DNA from: a virus
Strand: one strand, 5' to 3'
DNA length: 40,118 nucleotides
Virus record (IMG/VR): IMGVR_UViG_3300022223_000013
Coordinates: 1-40,118 of that record
Position numbers and translations under genes: made by a program. Shown here one piece after another: positions 2,224 through 39,344 of the stretch. Under the pieces are notes generated by a model. It had not been told where the DNA came from, searched no databases, and worked only from the letters and a program-made list of their open reading frames with translations. Within the stretch, counting starts at the first letter, position 1. The number at the start of each line of letters is the position of its first letter.

Positions 2224-5200
2224 TTAGGGTTCGAGGTCGGCGAGGAGAGAGGGCTCGTGTTTCGTGAGCCACCCTTGCGAGGTTAGCTTACGCTTGAGTC
2301 CTGAACGACGCACTTCAGGGAGGATCTGCATTATCACGTCTTTGTAGTAGTCTTCGGCCCGATGGAGCGTGCGGAGCTCCTCGGCGTCGAGTTGCGCGAG
2401 GATCTTGTCCCGTTCTGCCCTGGTCATACCGGACAGCGGAGCTTTCGAGCGAAGCGATCGCTCAATGTCTTTATACATGAGGGTTTCACTATACCGCTTG
2501 CCATATTTCTCTTTCTCCATCTCGACGTACCGCTCGCGCCACGCGGCTTCCGCATCAGCGTCTTTATGCCGTAACGCCAACGACCAGTTATGGAGGGCTT
2601 CCCCGCGAGGGCTCCGCCAGAAGACAGCGTTCGAATCTTTGCCCATTCGCTCCAAGTACTTCCGCTCCGTCGTTTGCCACGAGTAGTAGGCCGCGCTCTT
2701 GGGGTCGGTCTTTTGCACGATGAGCCCAGAGAGGTCTTCGACGCCATAGAGGGGCTTCCCTGGCTTGCCCATCAACGCCTTAATTTCCGGCCCGAGGGTT
2801 GTTTGATAGCCCAGGTATTCCGCCCGGTCCTGGATTGGGCGCCAATGAAAGACGTCCGGATACGACGTTTCTCGCATGAACATCTCAGGGGGCATCTTTA
2901 CCAGTGGCGTGAGCCCTTGCCAGAGACGATTGACCGGGGCTTTCGCTGCGTTCTTCACCGCTTCCCCAATGGTGAGCCGATCGTGCATGATGTCGCCCAC
3001 CAGGCCAGGAAACTCATCCAACCCAAACCAGGAGAGCAGATCGCCCAAGGCGCCGATCCCCGCCAAGTACATGATCTTGCCTTCGGCATCCCGCCCAAAG
3101 AGGATATGCGGACGATTCGCGACTGTGGGGTTCGTCTGCTGTAATTCATCCTCGTCGTCTCCGAACATCAGATAGTTCCACGCTTGGAGCGTCGACCAGA
3201 AGAAGGCCAGCCGGATCATAAACGACGCACCATTTTTCCCTGTAATCAAGGCCCCTTTTGCCAGCGCCGTCCCGCCATGTCCCCCGTCTAAGGCGTTGCC
3301 GACGAGGCGCCCGTAACGGGTCGCGTTGACTTCCATCCACGAGAAGAAGGGGATCCAGAAGGCCCGGACGGTCTGCCCCGCTTCACTGATTCGGTCATAG
3401 GCCCCCAACAGTTCGTTGGAGAGCTTAAACGCCCGGTCGCGAACGTCTGGGATTGCGAGTACGGTTTCCTTCTTCGACGCGCCGAAGTTCTTGGGCACCC
3501 CGTTGTTCTCCTGCATCTGCTCCAAGTAAGAGAGATAGGCCGCATACCGCATGAGCCCTTCCCGGTAGTCCGTCGATAGCCGAGCGGCCTTCCAGTAGGT
3601 ATTCCAGGCTTTGGCCGGCAGGCCCAGCACCCCACCCTTACTCGCCCGATCAAGCGAGAGCTTGAAGGCTTTCAGTTCGTTCAAGTCGCCGAGTTCCTGA
3701 TACTGCATCGTGGTCCCGTAGCCCCCACGCTTCACCCATTCCTTCGCCTCGCCGGTCAAAACCTCCTCGCTGAACATGACCGGGAGCAGATCGCTCGCCG
3801 CTCGGCGGAGCTTCTTAAAGGCGCCAGGGTTCCCGACAAACATCGCGTCGGCGTCTCCCGTGAAGTTCCGAATGTTGTACCGTCCCCACTTCCGAGGCGC
3901 GATGAGCATCAACTGCTTCCAATGCCCTAGAAATTGTCGGTTCATGTCGACAAACCAGGAATGCTCTTTATGGGAGAGATCGTCGAGGGTCTCCTTCGCG
4001 TCAATGGGAATGACGTACTGCTCGCGTGGAGCCCCCATCGCTAAGACCTTCCGGAGCTTGTCCGCCAAGAGCCCAGCATCTTCGAGCATCGACTCCTGGA
4101 GCGCCTTCGCGAGTTGGGCCGGGATGGAGTCCGCCATATAAAAGACGTTCCCCTCACGTGGTTGCCAGAGGTCGTGCGTGTCGGGGATAAGCTGTTCCCA
4201 CGTGACTTTCTTTTTCCCGAGGAGTTGGTCGACGAAGACCTTCCGCTCATTGATCACCTTGAACACCCCTCGCGCTGAGAGGTGCGCGTCGTTCTCCACG
4301 TCTTCGGCAATCTCCGCAATCTCCGGGAGTGAGAGCCGATCGTCCTGGCTCAACTGCATGGCTTTCCGAATGCGGCTCATGTGCATCCCGAGCCGTTTCC
4401 GAAAGTCTTTCAAGGTAGCCGCCACGATCGCGGATCGGTCGCTCCCTTCATCGATGATCGCCTGAATTGCCTTATTGTTCTGGTCTTTGGCTTGGGCTTC
4501 GAGCGACTTTCGGATATTTAAGGTCTGGTCGACGCCCTTGATCACCTTCGCCACTTGGGTGTCGTAGACCATCTGCGCCATGACTTCGAACTCCGCTTGC
4601 ACATAGTTCGCGTTGATATCGGCGCTCGAGCCGTGCCGGGTCTGCAAGAACCCGCGCCCGGTCGGAGTGCGGATCTTCGATCCGGTCCCTTTCATCGCCC
4701 GTTCTCGGGCATGGTCTAAGACTTGGTGCCGAAAGTAGTCTTCTTTGGTCAGCTTCTTCGTGACATCAAACCCGATGTCGTTCATCGCGCCCTGGTACTC
4801 CTTCTTGAGCCGCTTCCAGAGCTGCTGCCGTTTCTCCCATGACTTTTGGACGGTCTGATCTAGGGAGATCGCCGCATCGAGGCTTTCCAGGTCGTCAGCC
4901 ACTTTCTCCGCCGTATACCCAAACGGCAGTTTTCGCCCGGCGTCCGCCTCGCGCTGGAGGTCAGCTAAGAGCGCCTTCCATTCGAGCTGGTCATACTGCT
5001 TGCGATTCAAGGGCTTCACGATTGCCGCCAGCTCCCGCTGAATCTCGTCAGCGGCAATTCCCTTGTACTTCTGGAGCTTCAACAGATCCGTCCGGAGCCG
5101 CGCAAACTGCGCCGTATCGGGAAGATTGGCAAACTCCCGCGAGATCAACCGCCACACATGGCCTAGATGTTCCTTGAGCTTGCCGGAGAGGGAGTCTTTC

Positions 5201-8200
5201 TGAATCCCGCGCTTCGCCGCCCGAACGCGCCGATCAATCTCGGGGTCCGCCGATTGAAAGCCGATGTCCTCGCGTGCCCGTTGCTGCCGGTAGGCCTCCG
5301 CGTCCTTGGCCGTCCCGGCTCCTCCTGCCAAGAGGGAAGCCGGAATGCTCCCGCGCTCGCTCTTGAGGATGTCGAGCGGCCCCTCGTCGTCCTTGCCAGC
5401 GGCTTCAGCAATCACGCCTTCGTCCCGCTTGGTGAGGTCGAGGGCCGTGTCGATCTGCTTAATCCGTGATTCGAGGGCCAGAATCTTCGCCTCGTGCTCG
5501 AAGGGCTTCTTCTGCTCTTCCAGCATGTCTTGCCGTTTCTTCTCCCAAATAAGGATATTTTTCTTGCCCTTGGCCATCAGGCTATCGAGCGCAGCAATCG
5601 CGTTCTCGAACCGTACCATGACGTTCTCAGGCTTCACCTCGTCAAGCATAAAACTGGTTGTGGTGAGGAGCCGATTCTCTCCCACGTAGAAATAGGCCGA
5701 GTTGTCGATATGGACGTTAAGGTGGAGCGAAAACCCTCTGTATGTGCCAATGCCAGGGTATCGGAGAATGTCTGATCGGCTCTTCGGGTTCGCGTCTAGC
5801 GCGTCTTGGATCATCCGAAGAACTGCTTGCCCAGCTTCGGTTTTGTCGGTATAGGCCGTTTTGTTAAGCGTGACCGTGAACGGATCTGCGGGATGTGCGT
5901 CCGCAATCTCCTCGGCCTTCTCAAACCGTGCAATCGAATCTTTCTCAAACTTGATCTGGTCTGGAATGGTGCGGAGTTCGTAGGCAATGCGTCGCTGTGT
6001 GTCTTGGTGTGCCGCACGCAGAAGCGAGAGCTTCCGCAATTCAATATCCTTATTGGCCTTTTCGAGCACCATGGGATTGCCTGACGCCACCGCCTTCATT
6101 TCCGCAAACGACATCACCGCCGTGTCCACGTCTTGAATCGTGCGGATGTTGGGATCGCCCTTCATGATCTGTGTAATCGTGCGGGCTTTGGCTTCCAGCG
6201 TGCCCCACATAAAGACATCGAAGCTCGGCGCCTCCGTGGCATAGTTGAAGACGGCAAACTCAAACCCGTCCGGATCCGCCCGATAGAGTTCGTTCCCCTG
6301 GCGAATGCCCCGTCCGTTCCGCTGGTGGATGTCACGCGGACGCCAGGGGGCATCCAGGTTATGCAGCGCCACCATCTTCTTCTGGACGTTCGTACCAGCG
6401 CCCATCTTCTCGGTGCTGCCGATCAAGACGCGGATCGTGCCAGCGTTGACATCCTCGAAGAGCTTCGTCTTCTTCTCATCCGTCTTCGCATCGTGGATAA
6501 ACGCGATTTCCTTTTCGGGAATCCCGCCACGGATCAACTTCTTCTTAATGTCTTGGTAGACGCTCCCGCGCAGCTGCTGCTCTTCCGCGAGCTCCACCTC
6601 CTCGTCCTGTGCCGCGCCGTCCTCAGTCTCTTTCTTATCCTTGGTGTCTTTCGCTTTAGGAGTCGAGAGATCCAGAAAGATCAACTGTGTTCCCTTCACC
6701 GTGGCCGAGTCCTTGTATTCCTGGACGACCTGCTTGACCATCGCTGCGACTTTCCCGTGTTTGTCTTCCGGTGCTCCTGGCACCCGGAGCCGCACATCGA
6801 GCGCCGCGTTCCGCCCGTCTCCGGTAATCTTAAGCATGTTGTCTTTGCGGGGATCGACGCGCCCGGTTTTCAAGGCCTCCGCTCGCGTAATCAGCGAGGC
6901 CACATAGGTCTTCAAGGCCTCGCTCGGGGGCACCGTCACATTGATCGGCTTGCCTGTCCGCAGTTTTGGCACGGGGAGTTTGAGGTCTTCGCCTGTCTTC
7001 ACGTCCATCACGCGCCGGAACATCTGCGTGAGCTCTGGGACATTCACGAATTCTGCAAAGCGGGTCTTCGGTCGGTAGCCGCTCCCGTCGGGGGACAACT
7101 CCAACGATGTGACGGTATTGCCGAATTGCCTCGCCCACGCATCGAAATGGGAGAGCCCTGCTTGTTCCAGTTCTCGCGGCTGGAGATAGCGTTGCATCGT
7201 AAAGACTTCCGCCATGCTGTTGCTGATCGGCGTCGCCGTGCCAAAGATCACCGCTCGCTGGTTCGTGAGCTTATTGAGATAGTTGGTTTTCAAGAACATA
7301 TCGTAGGAGCGTTGGCTTTCCGTGTTCGGCAAGCCGGCCACTCGCGTCATGCGCGTGGGGAACCACAGGTTCTTAAAGAGATCGGCTTCGTCGACGAGGA
7401 TCATGTCTACGCCGGTCTCTTCAAACGTGACTCCTTTATCCGCATTCTCTTCGATCTGAGCCTTCCGGGATTTCAGTTTCCCCTCGAAGCGTGCCTTCGC
7501 CTTCTCAATCTCCTTGATTATGTTCCGATTGCCTTGCTTATCGGCCTTCAGCTCGTGCAAATACTCGTCGAGAAGATCGATCTGTTCCTTCGCAAACGCT
7601 TCGAACGATTCATAGCTCATTGGGATTCTCGACATTTGCGAATGGGCAATGACCACGGCATCCCAGTCGCCAGTTGCAATCCGCCCCACGAGCCGACGCC
7701 GGTTCTCCGCCTTAAAGTCTTCCTTCGTCGCGGCCAACACCTTCGCCGCTGGGTAGAGTTCCAGGAACGCACCCCGCCAGTACTCCACGAGATGGTTCGG
7801 CACGGTAATCAGCGGCTTATTCGCCATACGGAGCCGACGAAACTCCATCGCAATCGCGATTTTCGTATAGGTCTTCCCGGCGCCTACTTCATGCGCCAAT
7901 AGTGTATTGCCTTCCTGGAGGGCTCTCCATACTCCGTTCTTCTGGTGCGGACGCAAAACAATCAACGGGTTACTGCCAGGGAGGGATAAGTGCGAGCCAT
8001 CGTGCTCGCGCACTCGGATATTGTTGTACTCGTCGTTATACTTCCGTGCCAGCCGATCCGCCCGGTTCTGATCCGCCCAAAGCCATTTCTGGAACTCGTC
8101 TTGAATAGCCTGCAGCTTCTCCCGTGCGGCGATGGTTTCCTTCTCGTTCACAATCCGTTTATCATCGGGCAGTGCGTCGTAAACCGTGGGCAATTTGGAG

Positions 8201-11200
8201 GCCAGCGCATCCTCAAGGAGACTGGTCGCCGTGGCTCGATCAGTCCCAAAGGTCTTCGTGTTCTTGACGTTCTGCATCCCGGCTGATGCCTTCACGGAAA
8301 ACGCGCCGACTACTGCGGAGTAATTCACCTTGACGTTATAGGTATTGATATCCAGGAGGTGTGCGATAAAGTCTCGGTAATCGTTGGCTGGAATCCAACC
8401 ATGGCCGAGCTTGACGGCAATCTGCTCAGGCTTGAGGTCTTCCGGAATGGCGAGCTTTAAAGACTCCACGTTCTCATTAAACCGCTTATCTGTCTTCGCT
8501 GCTTCCTCGGCCACGCGGAGCTTCTGCCGCACGTTCCCGCTCAGGTATTGATCGGCTGGCTCCCAGGTCAATCCTTCAGGGTTCTGATACACCAGCCCTT
8601 TCAGGTCTCGAATGAGTTCATGCTGTGGGCGCCCGGTCAAAGCTTGCATCTTATCCAGATCGATCCGCCCAGTTTCGTTCAGGCTGATGAGCATGGCCTC
8701 TTTCGGGGTGTCCGCCTTAGTCGCCGATGGCCGATACTCGATAATGCGCTTTGAGAAGATGTCGGCTTTGTTGGCCGTGTTCGCCTTTTTGTCGTAGTCC
8801 CGCTCCAGGGATTGCAGCGTTCCGTAGTCCGGATCGTCCCGGAACAAGGCTTTATTGGCGCGGCTATTTATAAAGCCAAACTTCTTCTGAAACCGGTCAT
8901 AGACTTTATTCAACTCTTTCCGCTGTGCCGCCATGAACGGAGCGCCAGTATCTTCGAGTTGTGATTTCAGCACGCTCTTGACTTGTTCACGAATGGCAAT
9001 CAAGCCCCTTGCCCGTTCGATGTCGGTCGCGGTCGCATCCTCGACTGGGACAAACTGCGTACTTCGCCGCACATACAGCGCATTGTTCTGGATCGTATAG
9101 GCCCCTTCCTTCACATCGTCGCTCGCCTCCAAGGCTTCCAGGAGACCGCGAGGCGTCGTGCTGACCGGTCGCGTTCTCGCCTGGTAGATGTCGGCCGGCA
9201 TCTTCCGAAAGGCGTCCGCCATTGCTGACGGCACGTTCCGCCCGTCTGGCTTGACCGTGACTTCCTTACTTCGATACATCGTACCTTCAAGTGAGAGCGT
9301 GCCCATGATGTGCTCAGGGTGCCGCACGAAGTATTCATTGATCGAGGCATCCCCGTCAGGCGTTGCCTGTGTCTCCGTCGTGGCCCACGCCTCTCCACCA
9401 GGGTCTTCGCCCTCCTGGCGTCGACGCAACACAATCACGTCGGTGGTGACATCCGTGTTCGCAATCGCTTTGAATTGGGTATTCGGAAGTCGGATTGCTC
9501 CAACAAGATCGGCACGTTTGGCGAGATAGTCTCGCAACTTCCCGTTGAGCTTGTCCATGGTGAACCGTGACGTAATGAAGGCCACGAGCCCCCCAGGCCT
9601 TACTTGGCTGATCGCTTTCGCAAAGTAGTAGTCATGGAGGGACAAATGCAGTTTATTGAGGTCTTGATTGTGCGCGTCGTGAGGCCGCACGTCGGCGAAC
9701 GGGACATTGCCCACGGCCACATCGAAGAACTCATTCGGGAGGGCCTGCTGTTCGTAGGCGCCTTCACGGACGTTCGCTCGTTGATAGAGTTGTGCGGCAA
9801 TCCGCGCACTGATCGAATCCTTTTCAATCGCCGTGCGCTGAGAGCGGCTTGCCATCTTGGCTGGCATCACGCCGAAGAAATGGCCGATCCCCGCACCAGG
9901 CTCGAGTACTCGCCCATGTGTAAATCCTAAATGCTCCAGGCCGGTATAGATCGATCGAATCGTGTCCGGATCGGTATAGTGCGCGTTGGGTGTGGAGGCG
10001 CGTGCTGAAGCGTACTCTTCATCGGTCAAGAGGTCTTCGAGTTCGCGGTATTCCTTCTGCCACTCGTGAGACCACTGGAAGGCTTGCGGGAGTCCACCCC
10101 AGCCAGTGTATTGCGCGAGCACCGCCTGTTCGGCAGGACTCGCTAGACGGCCTTCAGTTTCGAGTTGCTTGAGGAGCTTGATCGCGGAGACGTTGGCCTT
10201 GTACTTGGTCTTTTGCCCTGACGGGATGGTGTAGTCAGCGCCGATGGTGAAGTCGGTTCCAGCTGGCTGATCTGATCCTGATACGGCCTCATCGTCCCGC
10301 CCAGCGTCTTCACGTCCTCCTCGCTCGGCGGATAGATCTCGTTCTGAAGCATCTCTCTTGCCTCGCGGGGCTGCATCCCCTGTTCCTCGAGAAACGTCAG
10401 TTCCTCGTTGATCTCGGTCTGCTTGCTTAGGAGATACTTGTTGAGTTGCCCCTGGCTCTTCAAGGCTTGAAACTGGGTCGGTCGGTGCTCTTTCAGGTGG
10501 TCGTGGAGCGTCCACCCGAGGCTGTTGAGTCCTTTCATTGGCCACCTCCTCCGGTGTGGGGGGTACTGTCAGTGTATCACGTTTCGGTTCTTGTGCAAGT
10601 GCCTCGGGCGTAGTGGGTTGGGGTTCCGATTGTGGCAATAGACTCACCCCGATCGGCTTGCCGTCCTCGAGGGCTTGGTGCATCTTCGAGAGGATATTGT
10701 CGAAGAATCGTAGCCTCTTGGCGTAAGCTTCTCCCCCAACGAGGCCAGGTCCATCTGTGAAATGCTTCTTGAGTAGCCGAACCTTCTCGGCCCATTTCGA
10801 TTTCTCTTTGATCGTCTTCGCCTGATTAAAGGCTTTCTGTGCGTCTACGGCAGAGGAGCGGAGATCGTCAAAGTTGACTCCTGCTGGCGCCACAACCCCT
10901 GCCTTCTCTGCTGGCGCCTCCAGGGAGGGATGGGTGGGTTTGGCTGCCTCGACATTGCGAAGGTTGCGAAGGGTTGGATCGGACGGCTTCAGGATGACGG
11001 TCTGCCCGTTGGTCCGTGCGACTTCGATATTGCCGCCGCTGGACACGGTTCGCACAATGCCAGTGAGCTTCTTCCTGTCGTGCATCCACTCGACACGATC
11101 GTGCTTCGCGAAGTCTGAAGACGCAGGTTTCGCTACAGCTTCCTCTGGTGTAGGCTGAGCAGAAGCCTTCGGTGGTGTCTCAGCCTTCTCAGGAAACTGC

Positions 11201-14200
11201 TCTTCTGTCACGTTCTTGGCAACCCACTGGATCCGCCCATCCGGTCCACGAGTCGGGACCAATTCAGCCGACGTGACCGTGTAGGCTGGCGTCTTCTTCG
11301 TGACCTCTTCCGGTGTGTCTGCCTTTGGTTGTGGTTGCTTCTCTTCTGTCTTTCCCTTTCTGAGCTTGGCGATATAGTTCCCGTAGACGCCTTTTAAGAA
11401 ATTTCGGCTCTTCTCACGGAAGTTGCCTGCTGTCGAATCGTCCTTGAGAATGACCCGTTCGCCGCCTGGGACTTGCGCGTTCTTGGTCTTCCCAGAGCGA
11501 TAGAAGCGGGTTTGCTGGAGGAAGTCTTCGAACGAGAGTTCGCCAGGCTGGAGCGGACCAACCATGGGATCACGTTGGCTGACTTGCTCCGTGGCCGTGA
11601 CCGTCTCTGGCGTTGGGACCTGCTCTTTCTCTGGCTGCTTGCTGGCCTGCTTCGGCGCCTGCATAATTTCAAGCGCAATCGCAAGCTCTTCAAGCATGTC
11701 CGGGGAGAGCTCGTCGAGGTGCCGTTTCCCAGTCTTCTCTTCCGTGAAATCCATGAAGGCAGGGTTGTTGTCCCATGGAATCCCCTTCTCGTCGGCCAAC
11801 TTGTGAATGTCGGCCACAGTTCGAGTAGGCTTCGTGCCTTCAACGGTGACCTCTGGCACCTCAAGCACTTCGTCATGGTCGGCCATCTGAATCGGGTCGT
11901 CCGGTGCCGGGAGCGCCGGCTGCTGCTGCTTCGGCTTCTTCGGTTTAACATCAATGGTTTGCTCAAGCGCGGCCCTCGCTTTGGCTTCTGTCTTGAATTC
12001 ATTCCCGCCCGTTGCTGGGTTCGTCAGATACGTGCCGTCTGGCCGTTGCACCTGGAATCGGCCATCTCGCGTCGGAATGATACGCGGTTCTGATGGTAGT
12101 TCTTCCGTCACGGGCTCGTCGGGAAGCGCATAGGTCGCGTCGACGGGCTCCGGTTCTACCTGTGGCACAGGCTCAGGAAGGCCTGGAGTCTGTCCAGGGG
12201 ATTCCTCAAGGAAGTCAAGATCCTGGTCAAGCGCCTCGCGCATGTCGTCGTCGATTGGATCAGGGGCTATCGTGGGCGTAACAGGAGGTTGTTCCGCCAC
12301 GAGCGGCTCGCTCGGCGTGGCTATGGGTTCCTGCGTTATCGCTGCCTCTGGCGTCTGAAGAGGGCGACCACTAACTTCTTGATTAGGTGACACCGCCATC
12401 TCCGGGGGTGGGACCGAAGACGGGGGCGCCGAAGGAGCTTGTGGCTGCTTCATCAAGAAGGGTGGCCGCTGTCCCGGTTGGGTAACCTGCATCTCATCAG
12501 GGAGACTCGACACGTGACTCTGGACGGAGACCGGCTCCGGCTCGGTGAAGAGCGGACTTTCGGTTTGTGGTTGCTCCTGCTGCCGTCGTGCCTTCCTGGA
12601 TTGTAAGACGCCAGACAGAAAGCCAACAATCGCCCCACTGCCTCCCCCTGCAGCTCCACCCATCCCAGCCCCTTCAAACCAGGAGCGGTTTTCGTCGTAG
12701 AGCTGCTGCGCAACGATATTCGAGCCGGTCTGTTGGAAATACTCTTGGATAAATTCTTGTGCGGCGGTCACTCCTGATTCTTTCAGGACTGTCACAAATC
12801 GTCCGCCCGTAGCTTTATTGAACCGGTTGATAATCCCAGCAATCGGCAAGGCTTCGCTGGAGCCTACGGCAGACCCTAACCAAAAGGCTTTCTCTTGCAC
12901 GTCCGGAGAGGCGGTCTTCTCTTTGGCGTCTTCGTACTGCTCTACTCCACCGACACCAGCCCCGAGCACGGCGGTTGTGGCAAGTGGAGCCTTCGCGGCC
13001 AGACCTGCGACCCCTCCAGCCATGAACCCAACCATGCTGCCCACGGCTCTCGGGAGCACACCAGCCACAAAATTCTTCTGCATGGCGGGATCGGCGGGGA
13101 AGAGCCGCTTCGCCATTTTGTCGATGGTCACGCCGAGTTGATAACTCCCCCGCTGTTCAATCGGACGATCATCACGGAGACTTTCTGGCAGGATTCGATC
13201 CAGGCTCTTCGAGGCCACGGCAATGGACTTGAGCGCGTCCGCTGGAATCTGCGCAAGCCCCTGCATGAAATTATATGCGGCCTCTTCCACTCCTTGCCGT
13301 ACACTCTGGATTGGCGGAGCGTCTTGGATGTCTTGCCCGGTCTGCTTGATATCGGCAGTAAACTGGCCTGCGAGTTCTTCGGCGGTCGGCACCTTACCGG
13401 AGACATGGACCTCGGGCACGTCTAGGACGTCTTCCTCTGTAGCCGTTGGTTCATCGGGCAGGGGGATTGCCTCACCGTCCATACCGATGATGGAGTGTCC
13501 GGGCTGCGGTTTGTTTACGATCTTACCTGTGATGGTGTTCAGTCGCCCGTCCGGAGTGTCTACGAACTCACGGGGATGTCCAGGGAGCTTATATTTCGAA
13601 CTGCCGTGGAGCCGTGGCCGGCCTTGCTCGTCCAGGTCGGTTGGATCAGGCACCAACTGCATATTGTCAGCAAACGCTCGCCGGTAGTCATAGAAATGGT
13701 TCGGGTTGTCTGGATCGGGGTTCAACCCACGATCGGCGAAGTTCTGCTTGTACCAACGCTGAAACCGCGCTTCTTGCTTCGGATCTGTAAACCCTGGCCC
13801 CTTCGGCGGAATTAACGACTTGGCCCCAGGCCGCTGCGCCTCCATTAAGGTCTTAGCGTTCCGCTGTTCGGTCAGGTTCGCAATCTCACCCATCCCCGGC
13901 ATCTGCTTATAGAGATCAAGGACGCTGGGCTCTGGGAGGTCGAACGACTGCCCCGCCTCGACCATCTGCCGTTCTATCTGGTCACGGCTGAGCGGTTTCG
14001 TGGCCTTGAGCGTGCGCGGCTTGACCTGTGGCGCGTCTACGGGGAGTTGGTCGAGCGTTGGAACGTCTACACTGGGTTGCGTCTTACTGGGGGCAGTTGT
14101 GGCAGCGGGAGCGGCTGTCTTAGGTCGGTCTCGCGGCTTGGGGACCGCCTCATCAGGGGCAAAGAGCCCCTTAACAAACCGCTTCGCCCGGTTGAAGGGG

Positions 14201-14442
14201 GTGTATTGCTCCTCAAGATCCTTCTTGAACTGCTGCGCGGCATGAACATTGCCTATGACTTCGCGCCGTTTCCCTGTCTCTCTGTCGAAGTCTTCGCGCT
14301 TGGCCTTCCGAAAGGGGGTCGGATCGTCACCAGGGTACTTGCCGACTTCCAGCGTAGCGATTGCCTCATCGCGTTCCTCTTCAGGAACGGAGAACTGATC
14401 GTCGAGGGAGCGGTGGAAATCTTCTAGTTCCTCTAAGGTCAT
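2224..14442 (-). CDS. Giant DarB-like polyvalent protein: N6-adenine methyltransferase plus SF2/SNF2 helicase, probably ejected with the DNA
   Basis: One 4072-codon ORF. Residues 1-1300 are Pro/Glu/Gln-rich linker with a compact motif block at about 230-330 (FYDYR, PGHPREFVD) and glycine/alanine-rich hydrophobic stretches near 467-496 and 591-614. A methyltransferase follows, with motif I LEPGAGIGHFFG near 1511 and a divergent catalytic motif GNVPF near 1578. The helicase has Walker A AHEVGAGKT near 2182, DEAD-box-like VDEAD near 2347, FGTATP near 2400 and HQRNGRGIRQ near 2705. The last 1300 residues are mostly helical, with a hydrophobic segment near 3750. P1 DarB and related 'polyvalent' proteins combine such domains and enter the cell with phage DNA to block restriction. 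The gene occupies the T7 gp16 position, consistent with ejection. ATG 14442 has only a weak ribosome site. Residues about 1302-1395 look like an out-of-frame reading (see the nested ORF). Confidence 0.85.
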   Translation of the reverse strand: MTLEELEDFHRSLDDQFSVPEEERDEAIATLEVGKYPGDDPTPFRKAKREDFDRETGKRREVIGNVHAAQQFKKDLEEQYTPFNRAKRFVKGLFAPDEAVPKPRDRPKTAAPAATTAPSKTQPSVDVPTLDQLPVDAPQVKPRTLKATKPLSRDQIERQMVEAGQSFDLPEPSVLDLYKQMPGMGEIANLTEQRNAKTLMEAQRPGAKSLIPPKGPGFTDPKQEARFQRWYKQNFADRGLNPDPDNPNHFYDYRRAFADNMQLVPDPTDLDEQGRPRLHGSSKYKLPGHPREFVDTPDGRLNTITGKIVNKPQPGHSIIGMDGEAIPLPDEPTATEEDVLDVPEVHVSGKVPTAEELAGQFTADIKQTGQDIQDAPPIQSVRQGVEEAAYNFMQGLAQIPADALKSIAVASKSLDRILPESLRDDRPIEQRGSYQLGVTIDKMAKRLFPADPAMQKNFVAGVLPRAVGSMVGFMAGGVAGLAAKAPLATTAVLGAGVGGVEQYEDAKEKTASPDVQEKAFWLGSAVGSSEALPIAGIINRFNKATGGRFVTVLKESGVTAAQEFIQEYFQQTGSNIVAQQLYDENRSWFEGAGMGGAAGGGSGAIVGFLSGVLQSRKARRQQEQPQTESPLFTEPEPVSVQSHVSSLPDEMQVTQPGQRPPFLMKQPQAPSAPPSSVPPPEMAVSPNQEVSGRPLQTPEAAITQEPIATPSEPLVAEQPPVTPTIAPDPIDDDMREALDQDLDFLEESPGQTPGLPEPVPQVEPEPVDATYALPDEPVTEELPSEPRIIPTRDGRFQVQRPDGTYLTNPATGGNEFKTEAKARAALEQTIDVKPKKPKQQQPALPAPDDPIQMADHDEVLEVPEVTVEGTKPTRTVADIHKLADEKGIPWDNNPAFMDFTEEKTGKRHLDELSPDMLEELAIALEIMQAPKQASKQPEKEQVPTPETVTATEQVSQRDPMVGPLQPGELSFEDFLQQTRFYRSGKTKNAQVPGGERVILKDDSTAGNFREKSRNFLKGVYGNYIAKLRKGKTEEKQPQPKADTPEEVTKKTPAYTVTSAELVPTRGPDGRIQWVAKNVTEEQFPEKAETPPKASAQPTPEEAVAKPASSDFAKHDRVEWMHDRKKLTGIVRTVSSGGNIEVARTNGQTVILKPSDPTLRNLRNVEAAKPTHPSLEAPAEKAGVVAPAGVNFDDLRSSAVDAQKAFNQAKTIKEKSKWAEKVRLLKKHFTDGPGLVGGEAYAKRLRFFDNILSKMHQALEDGKPIGVSLLPQSEPQPTTPEALAQEPKRDTLTVPPTPEEVANERTQQPRVDAPRPPERAPTDPVSSLEEPGATQQVSPKQADRDQRGTDVSRGTGDAAPRGKRDASERDLSAERGGREDAGRDDEAVSGSDQPAGTDFTIGADYTIPSGQKTKYKANVSAIKLLKQLETEGRLASPAEQAVLAQYTGWGGLPQAFQWSHEWQKEYRELEDLLTDEEYASARASTPNAHYTDPDTIRSIYTGLEHLGFTHGRVLEPGAGIGHFFGVMPAKMASRSQRTAIEKDSISARIAAQLYQRANVREGAYEQQALPNEFFDVAVGNVPFADVRPHDAHNQDLNKLHLSLHDYYFAKAISQVRPGGLVAFITSRFTMDKLNGKLRDYLAKRADLVGAIRLPNTQFKAIANTDVTTDVIVLRRRQEGEDPGGEAWATTETQATPDGDASINEYFVRHPEHIMGTLSLEGTMYRSKEVTVKPDGRNVPSAMADAFRKMPADIYQARTRPVSTTPRGLLEALEASDDVKEGAYTIQNNALYVRRSTQFVPVEDATATDIERARGLIAIREQVKSVLKSQLEDTGAPFMAAQRKELNKVYDRFQKKFGFINSRANKALFRDDPDYGTLQSLERDYDKKANTANKADIFSKRIIEYRPSATKADTPKEAMLISLNETGRIDLDKMQALTGRPQHELIRDLKGLVYQNPEGLTWEPADQYLSGNVRQKLRVAEEAAKTDKRFNENVESLKLAIPEDLKPEQIAVKLGHGWIPANDYRDFIAHLLDINTYNVKVNYSAVVGAFSVKASAGMQNVKNTKTFGTDRATATSLLEDALASKLPTVYDALPDDKRIVNEKETIAAREKLQAIQDEFQKWLWADQNRADRLARKYNDEYNNIRVREHDGSHLSLPGSNPLIVLRPHQKNGVWRALQEGNTLLAHEVGAGKTYTKIAIAMEFRRLRMANKPLITVPNHLVEYWRGAFLELYPAAKVLAATKEDFKAENRRRLVGRIATGDWDAVVIAHSQMSRIPMSYESFEAFAKEQIDLLDEYLHELKADKQGNRNIIKEIEKAKARFEGKLKSRKAQIEENADKGVTFEETGVDMILVDEADLFKNLWFPTRMTRVAGLPNTESQRSYDMFLKTNYLNKLTNQRAVIFGTATPISNSMAEVFTMQRYLQPRELEQAGLSHFDAWARQFGNTVTSLELSPDGSGYRPKTRFAEFVNVPELTQMFRRVMDVKTGEDLKLPVPKLRTGKPINVTVPPSEALKTYVASLITRAEALKTGRVDPRKDNMLKITGDGRNAALDVRLRVPGAPEDKHGKVAAMVKQVVQEYKDSATVKGTQLIFLDLSTPKAKDTKDKKETEDGAAQDEEVELAEEQQLRGSVYQDIKKKLIRGGIPEKEIAFIHDAKTDEKKTKLFEDVNAGTIRVLIGSTEKMGAGTNVQKKMVALHNLDAPWRPRDIHQRNGRGIRQGNELYRADPDGFEFAVFNYATEAPSFDVFMWGTLEAKARTITQIMKGDPNIRTIQDVDTAVMSFAEMKAVASGNPMVLEKANKDIELRKLSLLRAAHQDTQRRIAYELRTIPDQIKFEKDSIARFEKAEEIADAHPADPFTVTLNKTAYTDKTEAGQAVLRMIQDALDANPKSRSDILRYPGIGTYRGFSLHLNVHIDNSAYFYVGENRLLTTTSFMLDEVKPENVMVRFENAIAALDSLMAKGKKNILIWEKKRQDMLEEQKKPFEHEAKILALESRIKQIDTALDLTKRDEGVIAEAAGKDDEGPLDILKSERGSIPASLLAGGAGTAKDAEAYRQQRAREDIGFQSADPEIDRRVRAAKRGIQKDSLSGKLKEHLGHVWRLISREFANLPDTAQFARLRTDLLKLQKYKGIAADEIQRELAAIVKPLNRKQYDQLEWKALLADLQREADAGRKLPFGYTAEKVADDLESLDAAISLDQTVQKSWEKRQQLWKRLKKEYQGAMNDIGFDVTKKLTKEDYFRHQVLDHARERAMKGTGSKIRTPTGRGFLQTRHGSSADINANYVQAEFEVMAQMVYDTQVAKVIKGVDQTLNIRKSLEAQAKDQNNKAIQAIIDEGSDRSAIVAATLKDFRKRLGMHMSRIRKAMQLSQDDRLSLPEIAEIAEDVENDAHLSARGVFKVINERKVFVDQLLGKKKVTWEQLIPDTHDLWQPREGNVFYMADSIPAQLAKALQESMLEDAGLLADKLRKVLAMGAPREQYVIPIDAKETLDDLSHKEHSWFVDMNRQFLGHWKQLMLIAPRKWGRYNIRNFTGDADAMFVGNPGAFKKLRRAASDLLPVMFSEEVLTGEAKEWVKRGGYGTTMQYQELGDLNELKAFKLSLDRASKGGVLGLPAKAWNTYWKAARLSTDYREGLMRYAAYLSYLEQMQENNGVPKNFGASKKETVLAIPDVRDRAFKLSNELLGAYDRISEAGQTVRAFWIPFFSWMEVNATRYGRLVGNALDGGHGGTALAKGALITGKNGASFMIRLAFFWSTLQAWNYLMFGDDEDELQQTNPTVANRPHILFGRDAEGKIMYLAGIGALGDLLSWFGLDEFPGLVGDIMHDRLTIGEAVKNAAKAPVNRLWQGLTPLVKMPPEMFMRETSYPDVFHWRPIQDRAEYLGYQTTLGPEIKALMGKPGKPLYGVEDLSGLIVQKTDPKSAAYYSWQTTERKYLERMGKDSNAVFWRSPRGEALHNWSLALRHKDADAEAAWRERYVEMEKEKYGKRYSETLMYKDIERSLRSKAPLSGMTRAERDKILAQLDAEELRTLHRAEDYYKDVIMQILPEVRRSGLKRKLTSQGWLTKHEPSLLADLEP
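10143..10538 (-). CDS. Overprinted or frameshifted small helical protein inside the giant ORF (+1 frame)
   Basis: A 131-codon ORF in the +1 frame relative to the giant gene. Its ATG is preceded by AGGAGG with 6 bases spacing, one of the best ribosome sites in the window. Residues 1-95 look like a real helical protein (HLKEHRPTQFQALKSQGQL, then EEQGMQPREAREML and YPPSEED). This resembles a short protein family I associate with phages and mobile elements (TnpV-like), recalled rather than searched. Third codon positions are strongly G/C here from 10538 to about 10260, while the giant frame is poor in third-position G/C there and encodes R/D/G-rich low-complexity sequence. The last 35 residues overlap the methyltransferase start and look like shadow. 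It is either a nested gene or a domain of the giant protein displaced by compensating indels. Confidence 0.6.
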   Translation of the reverse strand: MKGLNSLGWTLHDHLKEHRPTQFQALKSQGQLNKYLLSKQTEINEELTFLEEQGMQPREAREMLQNEIYPPSEEDVKTLGGTMRPYQDQISQLEPTSPSALTTPSRQGKRPSTRPTSPRSSSSSNSKLKAV

Positions 14443-14451
14443 AGTTTTCAG

Positions 14452-14480
14452 TTGCCTGAAGTTATATTGTTTTGTAAAAT
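14452..14480 (+). promoter_or_regulatory. Possible promoter for the HNH gene
   Basis: TTGCCT (14452-14457), a 17-base spacer and TAAAAT (14475-14480) precede the plus-strand HNH gene. The -10 box ends only 6 bases before the ATG, so a transcript from here would be close to leaderless. The region is AT-richer than its surroundings, which makes chance promoter-like matches more likely. Confidence 0.4.
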
Positions 14481-14486
14481 AATCAC

Positions 14487-14972
14487 ATGGACAGAGTTAC
14501 ACGTAGCAGGAATTACTACAAGGACAACCGCGAACGATTGTTGCTTAAGTTTAAGGAGCGATACAAGAAACACAGAGATAAAGTGTTGGCCGCACAACGC
14601 ATGCGACTTCGCAATAATCCTGAAAAAGTAAGAGAGCAACGAAGAAAAAGCAGGAGAAAGTATAGACTGAAAATACTTGCAGCTCACAAGATAAGAGTCG
14701 CCATACTGAGAAATAAGGCTATCGCCATTCTTGGCGGAAAATGTGCGCATTGCGGATATGATAAAGATTTTCGAGCTATCCAAGTCGATCATATTAATGG
14801 AGATGGGTGGACTGAACGTAGGGCTGTCGGTAACTACAGAATTTATCGATCTATTGTGACTCTTGGACATCAAGATAAGTACCAGCCTCTTTGCGCTAAC
14901 TGCAACGTCATAAAACGGATGGACTTCGGAGAACATCAACAGAAATTCAGGATCGCGCCAAAGCTTTCATAG
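14487..14972 (+). CDS. HNH endonuclease, antisense insertion
   Basis: A 161-residue protein with a very basic N-terminal helix (1-80, Lys/Arg-rich, likely DNA-binding). The C-terminal HNH core has C86-A-H-C89, D101-H102-I-N104-G-D and C136-A-N-C139-N140: two CxxC pairs for structural zinc around a beta-beta-alpha metal site with catalytic H102. It is AT-richer than the surrounding genes and lies on the opposite strand between two late genes, ending 2 bases from the convergent stop of the 255-residue gene. That fits a free-standing homing-type endonuclease acquired after the late operon formed. A terminase-associated HNH is less likely given the location. Confidence 0.85.
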   Translation: MDRVTRSRNYYKDNRERLLLKFKERYKKHRDKVLAAQRMRLRNNPEKVREQRRKSRRKYRLKILAAHKIRVAILRNKAIAILGGKCAHCGYDKDFRAIQVDHINGDGWTERRAVGNYRIYRSIVTLGHQDKYQPLCANCNVIKRMDFGEHQQKFRIAPKLS

Positions 14973-14974
14973 AT

Positions 14975-15742
14975 TCACTCCTCATCACCATAGTCCATCA
15001 GATCGGTGTCGTCGTCCTCCATCTGCATCGACTTCGGATCACCGGAGGCGAGCGAGCGCATAAACTCGTGCATGGTCACCGGGTTGGAAATATCGCTCTC
15101 CTTGACCCCGAGCTTGTTCAGGAGTTGCATATGTTGCTTGACCTTCTCCCGGCGCTTCTGCACTTTGAGCCGTGCGGCGTCGAGCTGGTCTTTGTAGGGG
15201 GCAAACCCTGGGTCCATGGTGCCGTCTGGGCGCAAGAACTCGGATTTCCTCGACTTGAGTTTTTCCCCCAGCATTTGATACTGCATCTCAGCCGCATCTT
15301 TCTTGGCCAGCTCCGACATATACCGCGAGAAGGGCTTCGTGAGTTCCTTAGAGCGTTGCGCGGCCATCCGCCCCCGCTGCTTCGCAATACCGTACTGCAC
15401 GTGCATCTCAAAGTCTTTCTCGTCCATGTCAGGGAACTGTTGACGCATCGCTCGACGATAGGCGCGTTCCTGATCTTGAAACGACATCTGCTTCGGCGCT
15501 TGCGGCTTCAGCTGCGGAGGATTCGGCATCATGCCAGGATGCACCGGTTGCGCTGGGATCACCGCATTCGGCCTCGGCATGCCGCCCATAGGAGGCGGCG
15601 CGGACGGTGGGCCAGGATTACCAGCCAGCATGGCACCCGGAGGCGGAGCGGTCACTTGTCCTGGCCGCACCGGAGGCTCAGCCAAGGCCGTGCCTCCTGC
15701 CATCCCAGGCCGTTGTCGTTCATTCGGAAGCATGTACGCCAT
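14975..15742 (-). CDS. Putative internal virion/ejection protein, proline-rich N-terminus
   Basis: A 255-residue protein. Residues 1-85 are rich in Pro, Gly, Met and Gln; residues 86-220 are strongly helical and charged; the C-terminus is an acidic tail (DDDTDLMDYGDEE). AAGGAGG lies about 7 bases upstream of the ATG. No family is recognised. Its place between the gp13-like gene and the giant gene matches the T7 gp14/gp15 region, so an internal core or ejection protein is the best contextual guess. Confidence 0.72.
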   Translation of the reverse strand: MAYMLPNERQRPGMAGGTALAEPPVRPGQVTAPPPGAMLAGNPGPPSAPPPMGGMPRPNAVIPAQPVHPGMMPNPPQLKPQAPKQMSFQDQERAYRRAMRQQFPDMDEKDFEMHVQYGIAKQRGRMAAQRSKELTKPFSRYMSELAKKDAAEMQYQMLGEKLKSRKSEFLRPDGTMDPGFAPYKDQLDAARLKVQKRREKVKQHMQLLNKLGVKESDISNPVTMHEFMRSLASGDPKSMQMEDDDTDLMDYGDEE

Positions 15743-15754
15743 GATCGATCCTCC

Positions 15755-16237
15755 TTACCGTGCGAGAAATCTACCGGGAGACGGGAATTCTTTCATGATC
15801 TTGTCCGTATTCATCATGCGGGGTGCCGACATCCCTACCCGAGGGGCAAGATTCGGCGAACCCATCCCCATACGTTCCATCTGCATGTTTGGCTTTGGTG
15901 CCGTGTGCCCATCGGTCCTGAACTGCCCTCCGCCTGGAGAGTAGGCGCGGATCCCGCCATGTGGCGATGGCTGAGCCGTGGGCACGTTGGCTGTAAGCTG
16001 CGGCACTTCCATTCCGAGTCGTTGCGCTTGCATCGGTTGCGGACCTTCTGGCTGGTAGTAGTTCATTAGGACGTGCGGATCCCAGCCCTCAGCACCGGCA
16101 AAGGCGGATAACGACTGCCTCTTTTTGTAGGCGTCGATGTAGTCTTGCCGTTGTTTCATCTGGCCCATCTGCATCGTGGCTCCGAGGACCGTTTGCCCTG
16201 CCTGCGCCAAGCCTTGTCCAATGCCATAGCTGCTCAT
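15755..16237 (-). CDS. Putative small virion protein, Gly/Gln/Met/Pro-rich
   Basis: A 160-residue protein with a helical Gln/Met-rich N-terminus (1-45), then a disordered Pro/Gly/Met-rich middle and end. AGGGGG sits 5 bases upstream of the ATG. Composition and position resemble the adjacent 255-residue protein, and the two may work together in the virion. No conserved domain is recognised. The promoter-proximal side is interrupted by the plus-strand secreted-protein gene. Confidence 0.7.
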   Translation of the reverse strand: MSSYGIGQGLAQAGQTVLGATMQMGQMKQRQDYIDAYKKRQSLSAFAGAEGWDPHVLMNYYQPEGPQPMQAQRLGMEVPQLTANVPTAQPSPHGGIRAYSPGGGQFRTDGHTAPKPNMQMERMGMGSPNLAPRVGMSAPRMMNTDKIMKEFPSPGRFLAR

Positions 16238-16282
16238 CGTGACCCCCTTGACTCTCTCCCTAGTGGGAGGTAGGCTGAACCT

Positions 16283-16579
16283 ATGAAAACCCTACTCGCC
16301 ATTCTGCTTCTCATTCCATCACTCGCGCTCGCTGAGTCGATGACTGCTGCGGAATTCGAGGCCTGCCTCAATAACATCCCGTGCCTCACCGCCTATACCA
16401 GAGGCCAAGCGTTCCATGAGGAACAACCCACGAATACCGTCCAAGAAGAACTCGACGCTCGATTGTTAGGCGTCCATCCATTGTCGTTGCCTACAACGCG
16501 AGGGCCATTCCTGGGGCTATCTCCACTGATTCCTCTTTATCCACAAACTTTTTATCCAGAGCCCGTACAGCACTGGTGA
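16283..16579 (+). CDS. Small secreted protein on the opposite strand
   Basis: A 98-residue protein starting with a classic Sec signal peptide (MKTLLAILLLIPSLALAES, cleavage predicted after ALA). The mature part is about 80 residues with two cysteines at about 28 and 35. A GGGAGG lies 12 bases upstream, rather far. Third codon positions look coding. Its last 89 bases overlap, antisense, the 3' end of the S74-domain gene. A lone secreted gene facing against the late operon is typical of a moron-type insertion; possible roles such as superinfection exclusion are speculation. Confidence 0.6.
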   Translation: MKTLLAILLLIPSLALAESMTAAEFEACLNNIPCLTAYTRGQAFHEEQPTNTVQEELDARLLGVHPLSLPTTRGPFLGLSPLIPLYPQTFYPEPVQHW

Positions 16580-21090: not shown

Positions 21091-21720
21091 TTACTCCGTT
21101 GGTGAACACGCTTCGCCGTCTTCTCGAATCAGCCGGTCAAGATCGTCGTACCTGATCCAGGCTCGACCATTGAGAGCCCACGGGAGCCCCCAGGAATTTT
21201 GAATCAAACCACACTCTTTCCGGTCGTCATACCCAATCAGTTCGTAGGCATGACCACCAATGCGCCGACCTGTCACGCGCAAGATCCCGTGCTTATCCGG
21301 CGTCATCATCCCAGAATACCAGTGTGTCCCGAGTACCACCGGCCCACGGAGTCCGACCCATTGAATCGCGTCCTCGACCGTAAAGGCCCAGCCGTAGGAA
21401 GCAATCTTGCCGGCCAACTGTAAGGCTTTGGCACCTCCACGTACCGATGAGCCGTCATAGTCTTCCCCGTCCCATTCGTCGTTCCGTTGCGCGAGGGCGT
21501 AGATAATCTCTGGCGATGGATCGCGCTGGAGTTTCGGCAGTGCGCGGAGGAGCGCATGCCATGCGTAACCCACGCACATCGGCGTATTCCCTTGATCCCC
21601 CTTCCACCAGATCCGCCAGGTCTTTCGAACCGGACGAGGCTCGATCGGCGCCGCCTTCCGTAGGAGGAATTTCCTATCTCTAGTATCTGGTGCGAACCGT
21701 CGACCGAATTGGATGGTCAT
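21091..21720 (-). CDS. Papain-like (C1 family) cysteine protease
   Basis: A 209-residue protein with a complete papain triad. The oxyanion Q43 is six residues before catalytic C49, as in papain; H157 lies in GGHAYELIGY and N175 in QNSWG. There is no propeptide-like inhibitor domain: the catalytic domain begins within about 40 residues of the start. No signal peptide is seen. The ATG at 21720 overlaps the TGA of the i-spanin gene (ATGA), so it is translationally coupled to lysis genes. Its substrate is unknown; it may act on host proteins, process virion proteins, or act during lysis. C1 peptidases are uncommon in phage lysis regions. Confidence 0.85.
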   Translation of the reverse strand: MTIQFGRRFAPDTRDRKFLLRKAAPIEPRPVRKTWRIWWKGDQGNTPMCVGYAWHALLRALPKLQRDPSPEIIYALAQRNDEWDGEDYDGSSVRGGAKALQLAGKIASYGWAFTVEDAIQWVGLRGPVVLGTHWYSGMMTPDKHGILRVTGRRIGGHAYELIGYDDRKECGLIQNSWGLPWALNGRAWIRYDDLDRLIREDGEACSPTE

Positions 21721-22319
21721 TCCTTTTCTATCCATTTCATTTCGCTCTGGTAGCGGGCGTTGTCAAAGGTAACCATCCGCTGTCTCAGTAGCCGTTCGTC
21801 CAACAACTTTTCAACCGCCAGATCGTAGGCTTGTAATGCCTCGTCGGTGGTTACGGTGATGGATTCTTCCGGTACGAGCTCAACGGCGGGAGGGTCAACG
21901 GCTCCATCGTCGTCAGCTCCTCTGGCAACTTCGTCGGCGTGGGGCATGCTCGTTTCTGATAGCTGGGGCACCCGGCTAAGAGCATCGAACTGAGTAACAA
22001 ACCCAGGAGGCAACACACACGGCTGTTCAGTGGATTTAACATAGCGAATCGTCTCCTTATGGATCGGCGCGGCCTGCTCTTTGACTGTGCGAGCACGTTC
22101 CGCAGCCTGTTGCATCGCCACTTGGAGGGCTTTCTTGGCGTGGCGTTCATGCTGGGCCAGCTCTAAGAGCTCTTGAATGTGCGCTTCGTGGACCCGCTCT
22201 CGCTCAGCCCAGACCCCTTTCAGGTAGATCCACCCAACAAAGGCCAGTACGAGCCCAGAGATAACGCCCCACTTCATGAGCGGGGAGGCGGTTCGGATCG
22301 CAGTCAGTACCGGCACCAT
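21717..22319 (-). CDS. Rz: Rz-like inner-membrane spanin (i-spanin)
   Basis: A 200-residue protein with one N-terminal transmembrane segment (about 17-35, GVISGLVLAFVGWIYLKGVW) and then a charged coiled coil (about 38-85), the i-spanin layout. The C-terminal half is acidic and longer than usual, then helical again. A second gene, an Rz1-type lipoprotein, is nested in another frame, which is the diagnostic arrangement for Rz/Rz1. i-spanins pair with o-spanins across the periplasm and fuse inner and outer membranes after endolysin action. The ATG directly follows the stop of the 34-residue TM peptide gene. Confidence 0.8.
   Translation of the reverse strand: MVPVLTAIRTASPLMKWGVISGLVLAFVGWIYLKGVWAERERVHEAHIQELLELAQHERHAKKALQVAMQQAAERARTVKEQAAPIHKETIRYVKSTEQPCVLPPGFVTQFDALSRVPQLSETSMPHADEVARGADDDGAVDPPAVELVPEESITVTTDEALQAYDLAVEKLLDERLLRQRMVTFDNARYQSEMKWIEKE
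21851..22042 (-). CDS. Rz1: Rz1-like outer-membrane lipoprotein spanin (o-spanin), nested in Rz
   Basis: A 63-residue lipoprotein fully embedded in another frame of the Rz-like gene. It has a hydrophobic signal (CLLGLLLSSMLLAGC) ending in a lipobox L22-A-G-C25. The mature part is a 39-residue proline-rich peptide (PSYQKRACPTPTKLPEELTT), typical of Rz1. AAGGAG lies 10 bases upstream of the ATG, so it has its own ribosome site. The nested arrangement, lipobox and Pro-rich tail together make this call strong. It predicts an outer membrane, hence a Gram-negative host. Confidence 0.88.
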   Translation of the reverse strand: MLNPLNSRVCCLLGLLLSSMLLAGCPSYQKRACPTPTKLPEELTTMEPLTLPPLSSYRKNPSP

Positions 22320-32795: not shown

Positions 32796-33752
32796 CTAGG
32801 AGCTCGTGAAGTAGACGCTCCGGGCTTCTCCGTCTGAGGCTGAATCGCCCCAGGTATTGGCAAAGCCCAGCAACCCATACCACGCCACGGCATGCTGCCG
32901 ACCAAAGTCTGCGGCAATAGCTGCACGCAGCTCAGGAGCTTCGACTTCCGCGAGCGCGAGAATGTCGTCACCGAAGAACACCGCTTCACCGACAGCACTG
33001 TTGGTGCCGCGCTCGGTGAGCACGTTGTCATGGTCGATTTCGACGAACCGGCACTTCTCGATCTCTCCAACCTCGGCATTGAAAAACACATCGCCAGGGC
33101 GGAGATACTGCCGCCAGGAATGGAACTCCGGATCGTCCTTGACGCCACGGCACGCCTTCGTCGACGCCAAGACCATGTAGACCTGGCCCTGGTACGGATC
33201 GACATGCAGCGTCTTCCGCATGTAGTCCCGGATCAACTTGACGTGGGCAACGGTCATATTGTGCGTCCCGGTGACGCTGGTGACGCCTGCGTCCGTGGTA
33301 AACGTGCCGGCAATGGCACTGGTCGGACCAAACCGGATCTGCCCGTTCTTGACCGCCGCGCCGGCCACGGTATCGATGGTAGACTTCATTTGCTTCTTGA
33401 GCGTCTTCTGAATCGCGTTCTCCGGATCGAACTTATTCAGCAGTTGCACCTTCTGCGTGTACCCAATGCCGCGCCCGAACTCGTTGACCGTAATGGAACG
33501 AGTCGACATGGCGAGGGGATCGATTGGCACCTTCCCCGCTTGGCTGAGGATGGCCGATGTGGGCTCTGCGGTATTGCGAATGCGCTGAATCGTAACGGTA
33601 TCGCCTTGATGCGGCCCAAACCCTGGCTCCGGTTTCGCAAACTGCACCACCAATGTTTCGGCAATGCTCGCAAAGCGCAACTCGCTGCTCAGGGCGTGAT
33701 TCCGAGACACACCAGCACTAATGTCTGGCGTCCATTGAAAATTGCCTGCCAT
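32796..33752 (-). CDS. Major capsid protein, N4-gp56-like family
   Basis: A 318-residue protein with the layout of N4-gp56-type HK97-fold capsids: an N-terminal arm (HALSSELRFASIAETLVVQF), a Q-G-D-T-V-T-I strand, an E-F-G-R-G-I-G-Y-T segment, a central helix, and a C-terminal domain with F-F-N-A-E-V-G-E-I-E-K-C-R-F-V-E then G-E-A-V-F-F-G-D-D. It follows a scaffold gene and has an AAGGAG site 8 bases upstream. It would form the icosahedral shell. A short AGTCG/CGACT hairpin overlaps its stop codon. The family call is by pattern; the capsid role is supported by context as well. Confidence 0.78.
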   Translation of the reverse strand: MAGNFQWTPDISAGVSRNHALSSELRFASIAETLVVQFAKPEPGFGPHQGDTVTIQRIRNTAEPTSAILSQAGKVPIDPLAMSTRSITVNEFGRGIGYTQKVQLLNKFDPENAIQKTLKKQMKSTIDTVAGAAVKNGQIRFGPTSAIAGTFTTDAGVTSVTGTHNMTVAHVKLIRDYMRKTLHVDPYQGQVYMVLASTKACRGVKDDPEFHSWRQYLRPGDVFFNAEVGEIEKCRFVEIDHDNVLTERGTNSAVGEAVFFGDDILALAEVEAPELRAAIAADFGRQHAVAWYGLLGFANTWGDSASDGEARSVYFTSS

Positions 33753-38918: not shown

Positions 38919-39344
38919 TCACGCTACAGGGATATGCTTCCATTCGCAGGCATACACATGCCCTCTCTTCTTATACACGCGAATCTCACGGGGGTCTAGG
39001 CCGACGATGACCATTGCTAGGTCTTTCCCACATCGTTCCAAATCATCTAGTAGCCGACAGTCTTTCACTGACGACGTAGCCCCTTTGGTCGGATGCGAGT
39101 GCACGAGCGCCAACGGTTCGCGATTCTGAATGCCGCAGAGAAAGATGTACTCATGGATGTTGATATGGAACTCATGACAGGGATCGCCAGCGGTATTCGA
39201 TGTTTGATAGAACTTATCTCCACTGAACAACACGCCGCACATTTCCTGCGGAGATGCGTACTCGCTGCGCTGGAAGAGCAGATCAATGAGCGGTTGGCTC
39301 AACTCAACTGACGCAATAGCTCTTGGCTCGCCGCTTGGCGTCAT
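38919..39344 (-). CDS. JAB/MPN (JAMM) metallopeptidase
   Basis: A 141-residue protein with a complete JAMM zinc site: E34 (PQEMCG), H82-S-H84-P and D95 exactly ten residues after H84 (HxHx10D), plus S91/S92. The fold is the JAB/MPN protease seen in deubiquitinases and, in phages, in the N-terminal part of lambda gpK. Here it is alone, without an NlpC/P60 partner. The start at 39344 is selected because AGGAGAGG lies a few bases upstream; longer readings overlap the preceding gene. It might process virion proteins, or cleave ubiquitin-like conjugates made by host antiphage systems; neither is shown. Confidence 0.85.
   Translation of the reverse strand: MTPSGEPRAIASVELSQPLIDLLFQRSEYASPQEMCGVLFSGDKFYQTSNTAGDPCHEFHINIHEYIFLCGIQNREPLALVHSHPTKGATSSVKDCRLLDDLERCGKDLAMVIVGLDPREIRVYKKRGHVYACEWKHIPVA

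Follow-up and report, generated by a model that had tools for sequence, protein, structure and literature searches.

An open reading frame (ORF) of 131 codons at 10538-10143, minus strand, is very probably a genuine gene nested in the +1 frame of a DarB-like giant gene, so that the DNA shared by the two is dual coding. This reading is based on codon bias in the window and on the comparison of homologous loci. Giants of the DarB type, which rank with the largest genes of phages, have been investigated as antirestriction machines delivered by the capsid. DarB of P1 is packaged in the virion and protects the DNA on entry (PMC9024508), and the DarB-like protein of JC1 is also virion-associated (PMC9144972). 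A second conserved gene inside such giants seems to have remained unannotated so far. No mention of it was found in the survey of polyvalent proteins (PMC5512222), in the JC1 and Parlo papers or in a wider text search, which covered open-licence papers and is no proof of absence from the literature.

The nested gene and its host gene

The window, the whole stretch of 40,118 nucleotides analysed here, is a 40-kb phage-like contig of a 4.1-Mb draft assembly. Its gene content is phage-like, with a major head protein and other head genes, and the giant ORF (14442-2224) is its largest gene. The following features were located.

2224..14442, minus: giant ORF of 4072 aa, DarB-like polyvalent antirestriction protein (phrog_10089, E=0, residues 1320-3069)
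9196..10239, minus: N6-type DNA methyltransferase (MTase) part of the giant protein (profile A3, E=8e-147)
7534..8085, minus: N-terminal part of the SNF2-type helicase of the giant protein, residues 2120-2303 (PF00176)
6295..6516, minus: C-terminal helicase domain of the giant protein, residues 2643-2716 (PF00271)
10143..10538, minus: TnpV-like gene nested in frame +1 of the giant ORF, with 131 codons and a stop (ORF, Pfam, codon score, homologues in the same frame at 115 other MTase loci)
10545..10550, minus: AGGAGG, the Shine-Dalgarno (SD) sequence that belongs to the nested gene, at 6 nt from its ATG (sequence; family-wide SD enrichment)
10254..10538, minus: residues 1-95 of the nested protein, its conserved core, with predicted helices at 6-18, 20-28, 32-52 and 57-63 (codon-frame score, AlphaFold2)
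10146..10253, minus: residues 96-131 of the nested ORF, a C-terminal tail that is not conserved and extends over the beginning of the MTase region (codon bias as in the giant frame)
10254..10539, minus: R/D/G/E-rich linker, residues 1302-1396 of the giant frame, which overlies the nested core and is predicted to be disordered (sequence, codon score, pLDDT below 50 throughout)
32796..33752: major head protein

The core of MTase and SNF2/DEAD helicase, typical of DarB-like polyvalent proteins, was found in the giant ORF with phrog_10089 (E=0) and with PF00176, PF04851 and PF00271, all three above their cut-offs. P1 DarB, phrog_10089 and the proteins of Bcep22-like and PEp14-like phages share this core and have variable N-terminal modules. 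P1 darB differs in that it begins at the MTase, and it was checked to be without a nested small ORF. Elsewhere in the window, a weak papain-type peptidase match (21091-21735, minus; PF00112, 22.0 bits) and a JAB-domain match (38919-39416, minus; PF14464, 26.7 bits) were observed.

Codon-frame scores were calculated per codon and referred to the giant ORF's own codon usage. The nested frame was favoured for residues 1-50 (+0.78 per codon vs. -0.68 for the giant frame) and for residues 51-95 (+0.57 vs. -0.42), and over residues 96-131 the preference was back with the giant frame (+0.64 vs. -0.72). The GC content by codon position flips in parallel. A preceding sequence-only reading of the window had described this +1-frame ORF with its AGGAGG-6-ATG start, a frame preference for it from 10538 to about 10260 and low-complexity R/D/G-rich sequence in the giant frame, and had suggested a per-frame codon-bias plot. 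All of this was borne out, with the switch of frame falling after residue 95 and the giant frame being R/D/G/E-rich. Selection was measured on homologues because no close relative of the window is available, and codon bias is the measure taken from the window itself.

Homologues in the same frame and position

Using tblastn with the nested product against annotated phages, matches were obtained in the middle of the coding sequences (CDSs) of DarB-like genes in six phages, namely the Erwinia phages PEp14, Pavtok and Stean, the Klebsiella phages LASTA and SopranoGao and the Pseudomonas phage Itty13. Each match lay in the +1 frame of the giant, never in the giant frame itself. With a better query, the match in 21/21 significant annotated records was covered by a long CDS, named as DarB-type, as methylase or otherwise, and none of these records lists the nested gene as a gene of its own; a 22nd record was a weak, apparently unrelated match. 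Gene callers that forbid long overlaps on the same strand systematically miss such nested genes. In the record of Itty13 (L004) the DarB-like giant ORF (3984-16320) is itself unannotated, and three long antisense hypothetical CDSs are listed instead.

Loci were gathered by two independent profiles, one of the small protein and one of the MTase (A3). Nested ORFs were then called by an iterated model of the small protein across 125 DarB-type MTase loci, and 116 were found. Without exception (116/116) they were in +1 relative to the MTase, within the open MTase frame and ahead of the MTase. A drift of the iterated model is possible, but is argued against by the result that no matches in other frames or on the opposite strand occurred in the 125 loci. 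One further match in these loci was a second standalone copy after the giant (L091). The Burkholderia phage JC1 is among the members found by the iterated model only and has no Pfam family match. In the unbiased subset, selected by the MTase only, 75 of the 80 viral contigs carried the nested ORF (these 80 were the ones read out of 498 MTase loci found). An unmatched +1 ORF was present at the same place in the other five, which were not counted. Single-sequence queries of the window against the viral contigs gave no matches, alignments being required, and a search of a plasmid collection gave no match either.

The distance from the nested ORF to the MTase was 74 nt in the median, with 17 cases of 300-700 nt and five above 1 kb. 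Judged from this varying distance, extra in-frame modules therefore sit between the two in some lineages, with the +1 relation intact. The distances of small proteins and MTases were correlated with r=0.29 (0/2000 permutations), both being saturated; this lends weak support to a co-inheritance of the small gene and the MTase.

Relatives of the nested gene also exist alone. Free-standing ones were found in Corticibacter (L048) and in a Marinimicrobia bin (L049). Furthermore, two decayed standalone relatives lie outside any DarB gene in genomes of the window's own genus (L046, 7591-7863, reverse strand; L047, 6762-7072), the latter with close similarity to the window protein.

Selection on both reading frames

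Substitutions were classed by their effect in both frames. For 20 independent pairs of distinct homologous sequences, dN/dS was 0.39 in the nested frame (95% interval 0.30-0.48) and 1.16 (0.98-1.34) in the giant frame over the same bases; these pairs, like the 74 clusters used below, are related by descent and in this respect not fully independent. In close pairs the differences within the overlap were mostly at the nested third position, and the MTase just downstream showed the usual third-position excess of the giant frame. Between PEp14 and Pavtok 10, 10 and 16 differences were counted at nested positions 1, 2 and 3, vs. 3, 4 and 63 at giant positions 1, 2 and 3 downstream. When the whole giant gene was scanned for PEp14 vs. 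LASTA, the lowest third-position divergence was located at the nested gene (0.39/0.28/0.17), which is also the clearest case of a third position below the first and second.

The giant frame is open across the nested gene in 74/74 clusters, vs. 4.0 expected after synonymous recoding of the nested gene with the giant's codon usage as background. By the same recoding 313.6 giant-frame stops were expected over the nested gene, and none was observed. In the standalone copies, 2, 3 and 6 stops are present in the corresponding giant frame. The overlapping pair thus shows purifying selection in the nested frame, and both frames are held open by selection. Since dN/dS is 1.16 in the giant frame and yet all 74 clusters are open, the giant frame is, as judged from these comparisons, selected for read-through and hardly for its residues. 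The sequence-only reading had named homologues with a conserved giant frame and a +1 frame broken by stops as evidence against its proposal; the opposite was found.

Evidence for initiation at the nested start codon

The chosen nested start was ATG in 107 of the 116 ORFs. A strong SD was present at the ATG nearest to the start of the homologous region in 57% of the clusters, compared with 3.6% of the control ATGs, and a 4-base SD in 69% compared with 8.9%. The controls were 5,771 out-of-frame ATGs of the same giants. Four phages (PEp14, LASTA, Pavtok and Stean) have a stop in the nested frame only two codons ahead of the ATG, a position that favours internal initiation over frameshifting. At the level of sequence analysis, the nested gene, its start site, the purifying selection on it and the selection for an open giant frame can be regarded as established, and we infer that both proteins are made from the shared DNA.

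An alternative is that two compensating frameshifts, of evolutionary origin or introduced by assembly, shifted a domain of the giant that was once in frame out of its register. The codon bias does change frame at about 10540 and about 10254, and the upstream CDS of the Sinorhizobium phage PBC5 shares its frame with the small domain. However, the +1 relation was constant over the 116 loci, which come from independent assemblies and isolate genomes, the nested gene has its own SD and start codon, the upstream stop is present in the four phages mentioned, and standalone copies exist. The family-wide constancy of the frame rules out compensating frameshifts or an assembly error. Hence, of the two options left by the sequence-only reading, a gene embedded in a linker was retained and the frameshifts were discarded.

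Programmed frameshifting from the giant frame, leading to a fusion of the N-terminal half with the TnpV-like protein, is very improbable as well. PBC5 directly encodes such a fusion, but the strong SD at the nested ATG speaks against this mechanism, and the stop two codons upstream of it in PEp14, LASTA, Pavtok and Stean leaves almost no room for a shift.

The arrangement in PBC5 (L005, 2773-9315) departs from the common pattern. The upstream polyvalent CDS is in frame with the small domain and then reaches a stop, and the MTase frame overlaps the small domain in the usual +1 relation. The PBC5 record is an old one, and the departure reflects either a sequence error in it or a variant that is genuinely split.

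Relationship to TnpV and predicted structure

A likeness to TnpV had been suggested by the sequence-only reading. The nested protein of the window matched the Pfam family PF14198 (TnpV) with E=1.9e-4; its score of 21.8 bits falls short of the curated cut-off, 27 bits. The likeness nevertheless exceeds chance, and homologues are found family-wide at this position and in this frame. The cut-off was surpassed, with 57-150 bits, by nested ORFs from gut-type elements (L037, L040, L064, L091, L099, L102). Profiles of phage-type and TnpV-type nested proteins were aligned by hhalign with 96.1% probability (E=3.7e-9, 58 columns), with no above-cut-off TnpV knowingly included in the query set. These profile comparisons place the nested product, a small helical protein, in the TnpV superfamily. 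It shares with the TnpV family of Tn4451/Tn6104-type elements the helical build of a 90-120-aa protein and the motif L.E..P..Y..L...G.L. In contrast to TnpV, the window protein has no N-terminal lead segment, the match starting at profile position 26. TnpV has also been described as a separate gene, whereas the gene of the window protein is nested in another. TnpV proper belongs to transposons with a large serine recombinase, and the window is a phage-like contig.

With AlphaFold2 a confident helical fold was predicted for the nested protein (pLDDT 86.9 overall, 90-97 over residues 1-70). The linker that the giant frame encodes on this DNA was predicted to be completely disordered (pLDDT about 40) and to be followed by folded helices leading into the MTase. 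According to these models, one DNA stretch encodes a folded helical protein and a disordered linker.

It could be argued that the +1 ORF is spurious, opened by the R/D/G/E-rich composition of the linker and giving no product. Given the giant's amino acids, composition alone would open the +1 frame in about 47% of the clusters. Against this stand the homology at protein level, which crosses phyla and includes TnpV and the standalone genes, the dN/dS of 0.39 with unconstrained residues in the giant frame, the SD enrichment at nested starts and the confident predicted fold. A spurious ORF is excluded by homology, selection and SD.

A search of the PDB with the nested protein gave low-complexity helical matches only and no convincing relative of solved structure. 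The match to 2apl was weak (E=1.2, TM 0.54) and was not relied on. NCBIfam and PADLOC gave no useful match for the nested protein. The best viral model match was Q8W6J4 (E=0.011), unnamed in the tables, which we suspect from the style of the accession to be the PBC5 protein itself. The label 'endolysin' of phrog_938 was rejected as an artefact of the 2185-aa ORF of PBC5 that ends in the small domain.

Origin of the arrangement

In the usual view, overprinting creates new small genes. The sequence-only reading had likewise offered, as one of its two options, a gene overprinted in a linker, but the direction was probably the reverse, the small gene being structured, conserved and widespread and the giant-frame linker disordered. 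It is likely that the small gene is the older of the two and that the giant arose by fusion across it, given that the small protein has a fold, is widely distributed and also occurs by itself, and that the linker is disordered with no detectable selection on its residues. We propose that a tnpV-like gene already stood between an upstream gene and the methyltransferase gene, and that these two were joined by reading it out of frame. Ribosomes starting at the internal SD and ATG would produce the small protein, and others would translate this RNA without a break in the giant frame. The resulting unstructured linker would connect the variable N-terminal modules to the methyltransferase-helicase core. 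By such a route, opposite to the usual one, a fusion that passes through an existing gene in a different frame could give rise to multi-domain proteins, in which only the linker is a de novo reading.

Same-strand embedded phage genes are known, as Rz1 inside Rz, where a small gene also lies wholly within a larger one in another frame. The nested TnpV-like gene differs from this pair: it is located in the middle of a 12-kb gene and recurs in many lineages of phages and elements. Moreover, in the DarB case the small folded protein appears to be the older partner.

Possible function

To judge tentatively from its near-obligate pairing with DarB-type cores, the small protein may serve the DarB-like protein as a dedicated partner. 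It might act, for example, in keeping the giant inactive, in its unfolding, in capsid loading or in its action after entry, and nesting would tie its production and inheritance to the giant. This functional link is drawn from genomic arrangement, and TnpV-like genes are also found without DarB. A working model is Ulx of P1, a small accessory protein that aids the localisation of DarB to the capsid (PMC9024508). Ulx is also a small protein encoded beside darB, but its gene is separate and no sequence relation exists; a homology of the nested protein to Ulx was discarded (hhalign probability 0.1%). As a DarB partner, the nested protein could be a missing small factor of these phage systems, and the TnpV family, so far without a function, would gain a testable role.

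The main functional rival is a recombination role. In this case the nested gene is real, its product is an excisionase-like or recombination factor, and the giant gene serves only as a safe harbour, with no role in DarB function. Only the functional step of our explanation is contested by it. For TnpV of Tn4451 an excisionase-like role was postulated from its similarity to lambda Xis (PMC3158075). Free-standing TnpV-like genes outside DarB loci, and a TnpV-like ORF adjoining the SNF2 gene in a Streptococcus element, would suit such a role. We consider it unlikely, though to be taken seriously, in view of the near-obligate association with DarB-type MTases in phages (75/80 MTase-selected viral loci).

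The most far-reaching reading combines partnership and fusion. A protein of the TnpV superfamily would be an obligate and ancient DarB partner in phages and conjugative elements of several phyla, and the giants would have been built by fusion across a small gene that was never lost, the overprinted product being a mere disordered linker. Taken as a whole, we regard this combination as a serious possibility that falls just short of an even prospect.

Other small ORFs next to the methyltransferase

TnpV-like ORFs were also observed right after the MTase-helicase gene (L091, 8977-9357; L150, 10168-10547), in addition to the nested one or in its place. In the Streptococcus SNF2 elements L150 and L151 no nested gene was found ahead of the MTase, and in L150 TnpV-like ORFs follow the MTase. 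In the Bacteroides phage BKO1-TP3 (L149) a +1 ORF at 4630-4962, just ahead of the MTase in a giant DarB-like gene, was unmatched by the TnpV-like model. A nested gene of another kind may occupy this position. Similar unmatched +1 ORFs were seen in L068, L077, L103, L115 and L117.
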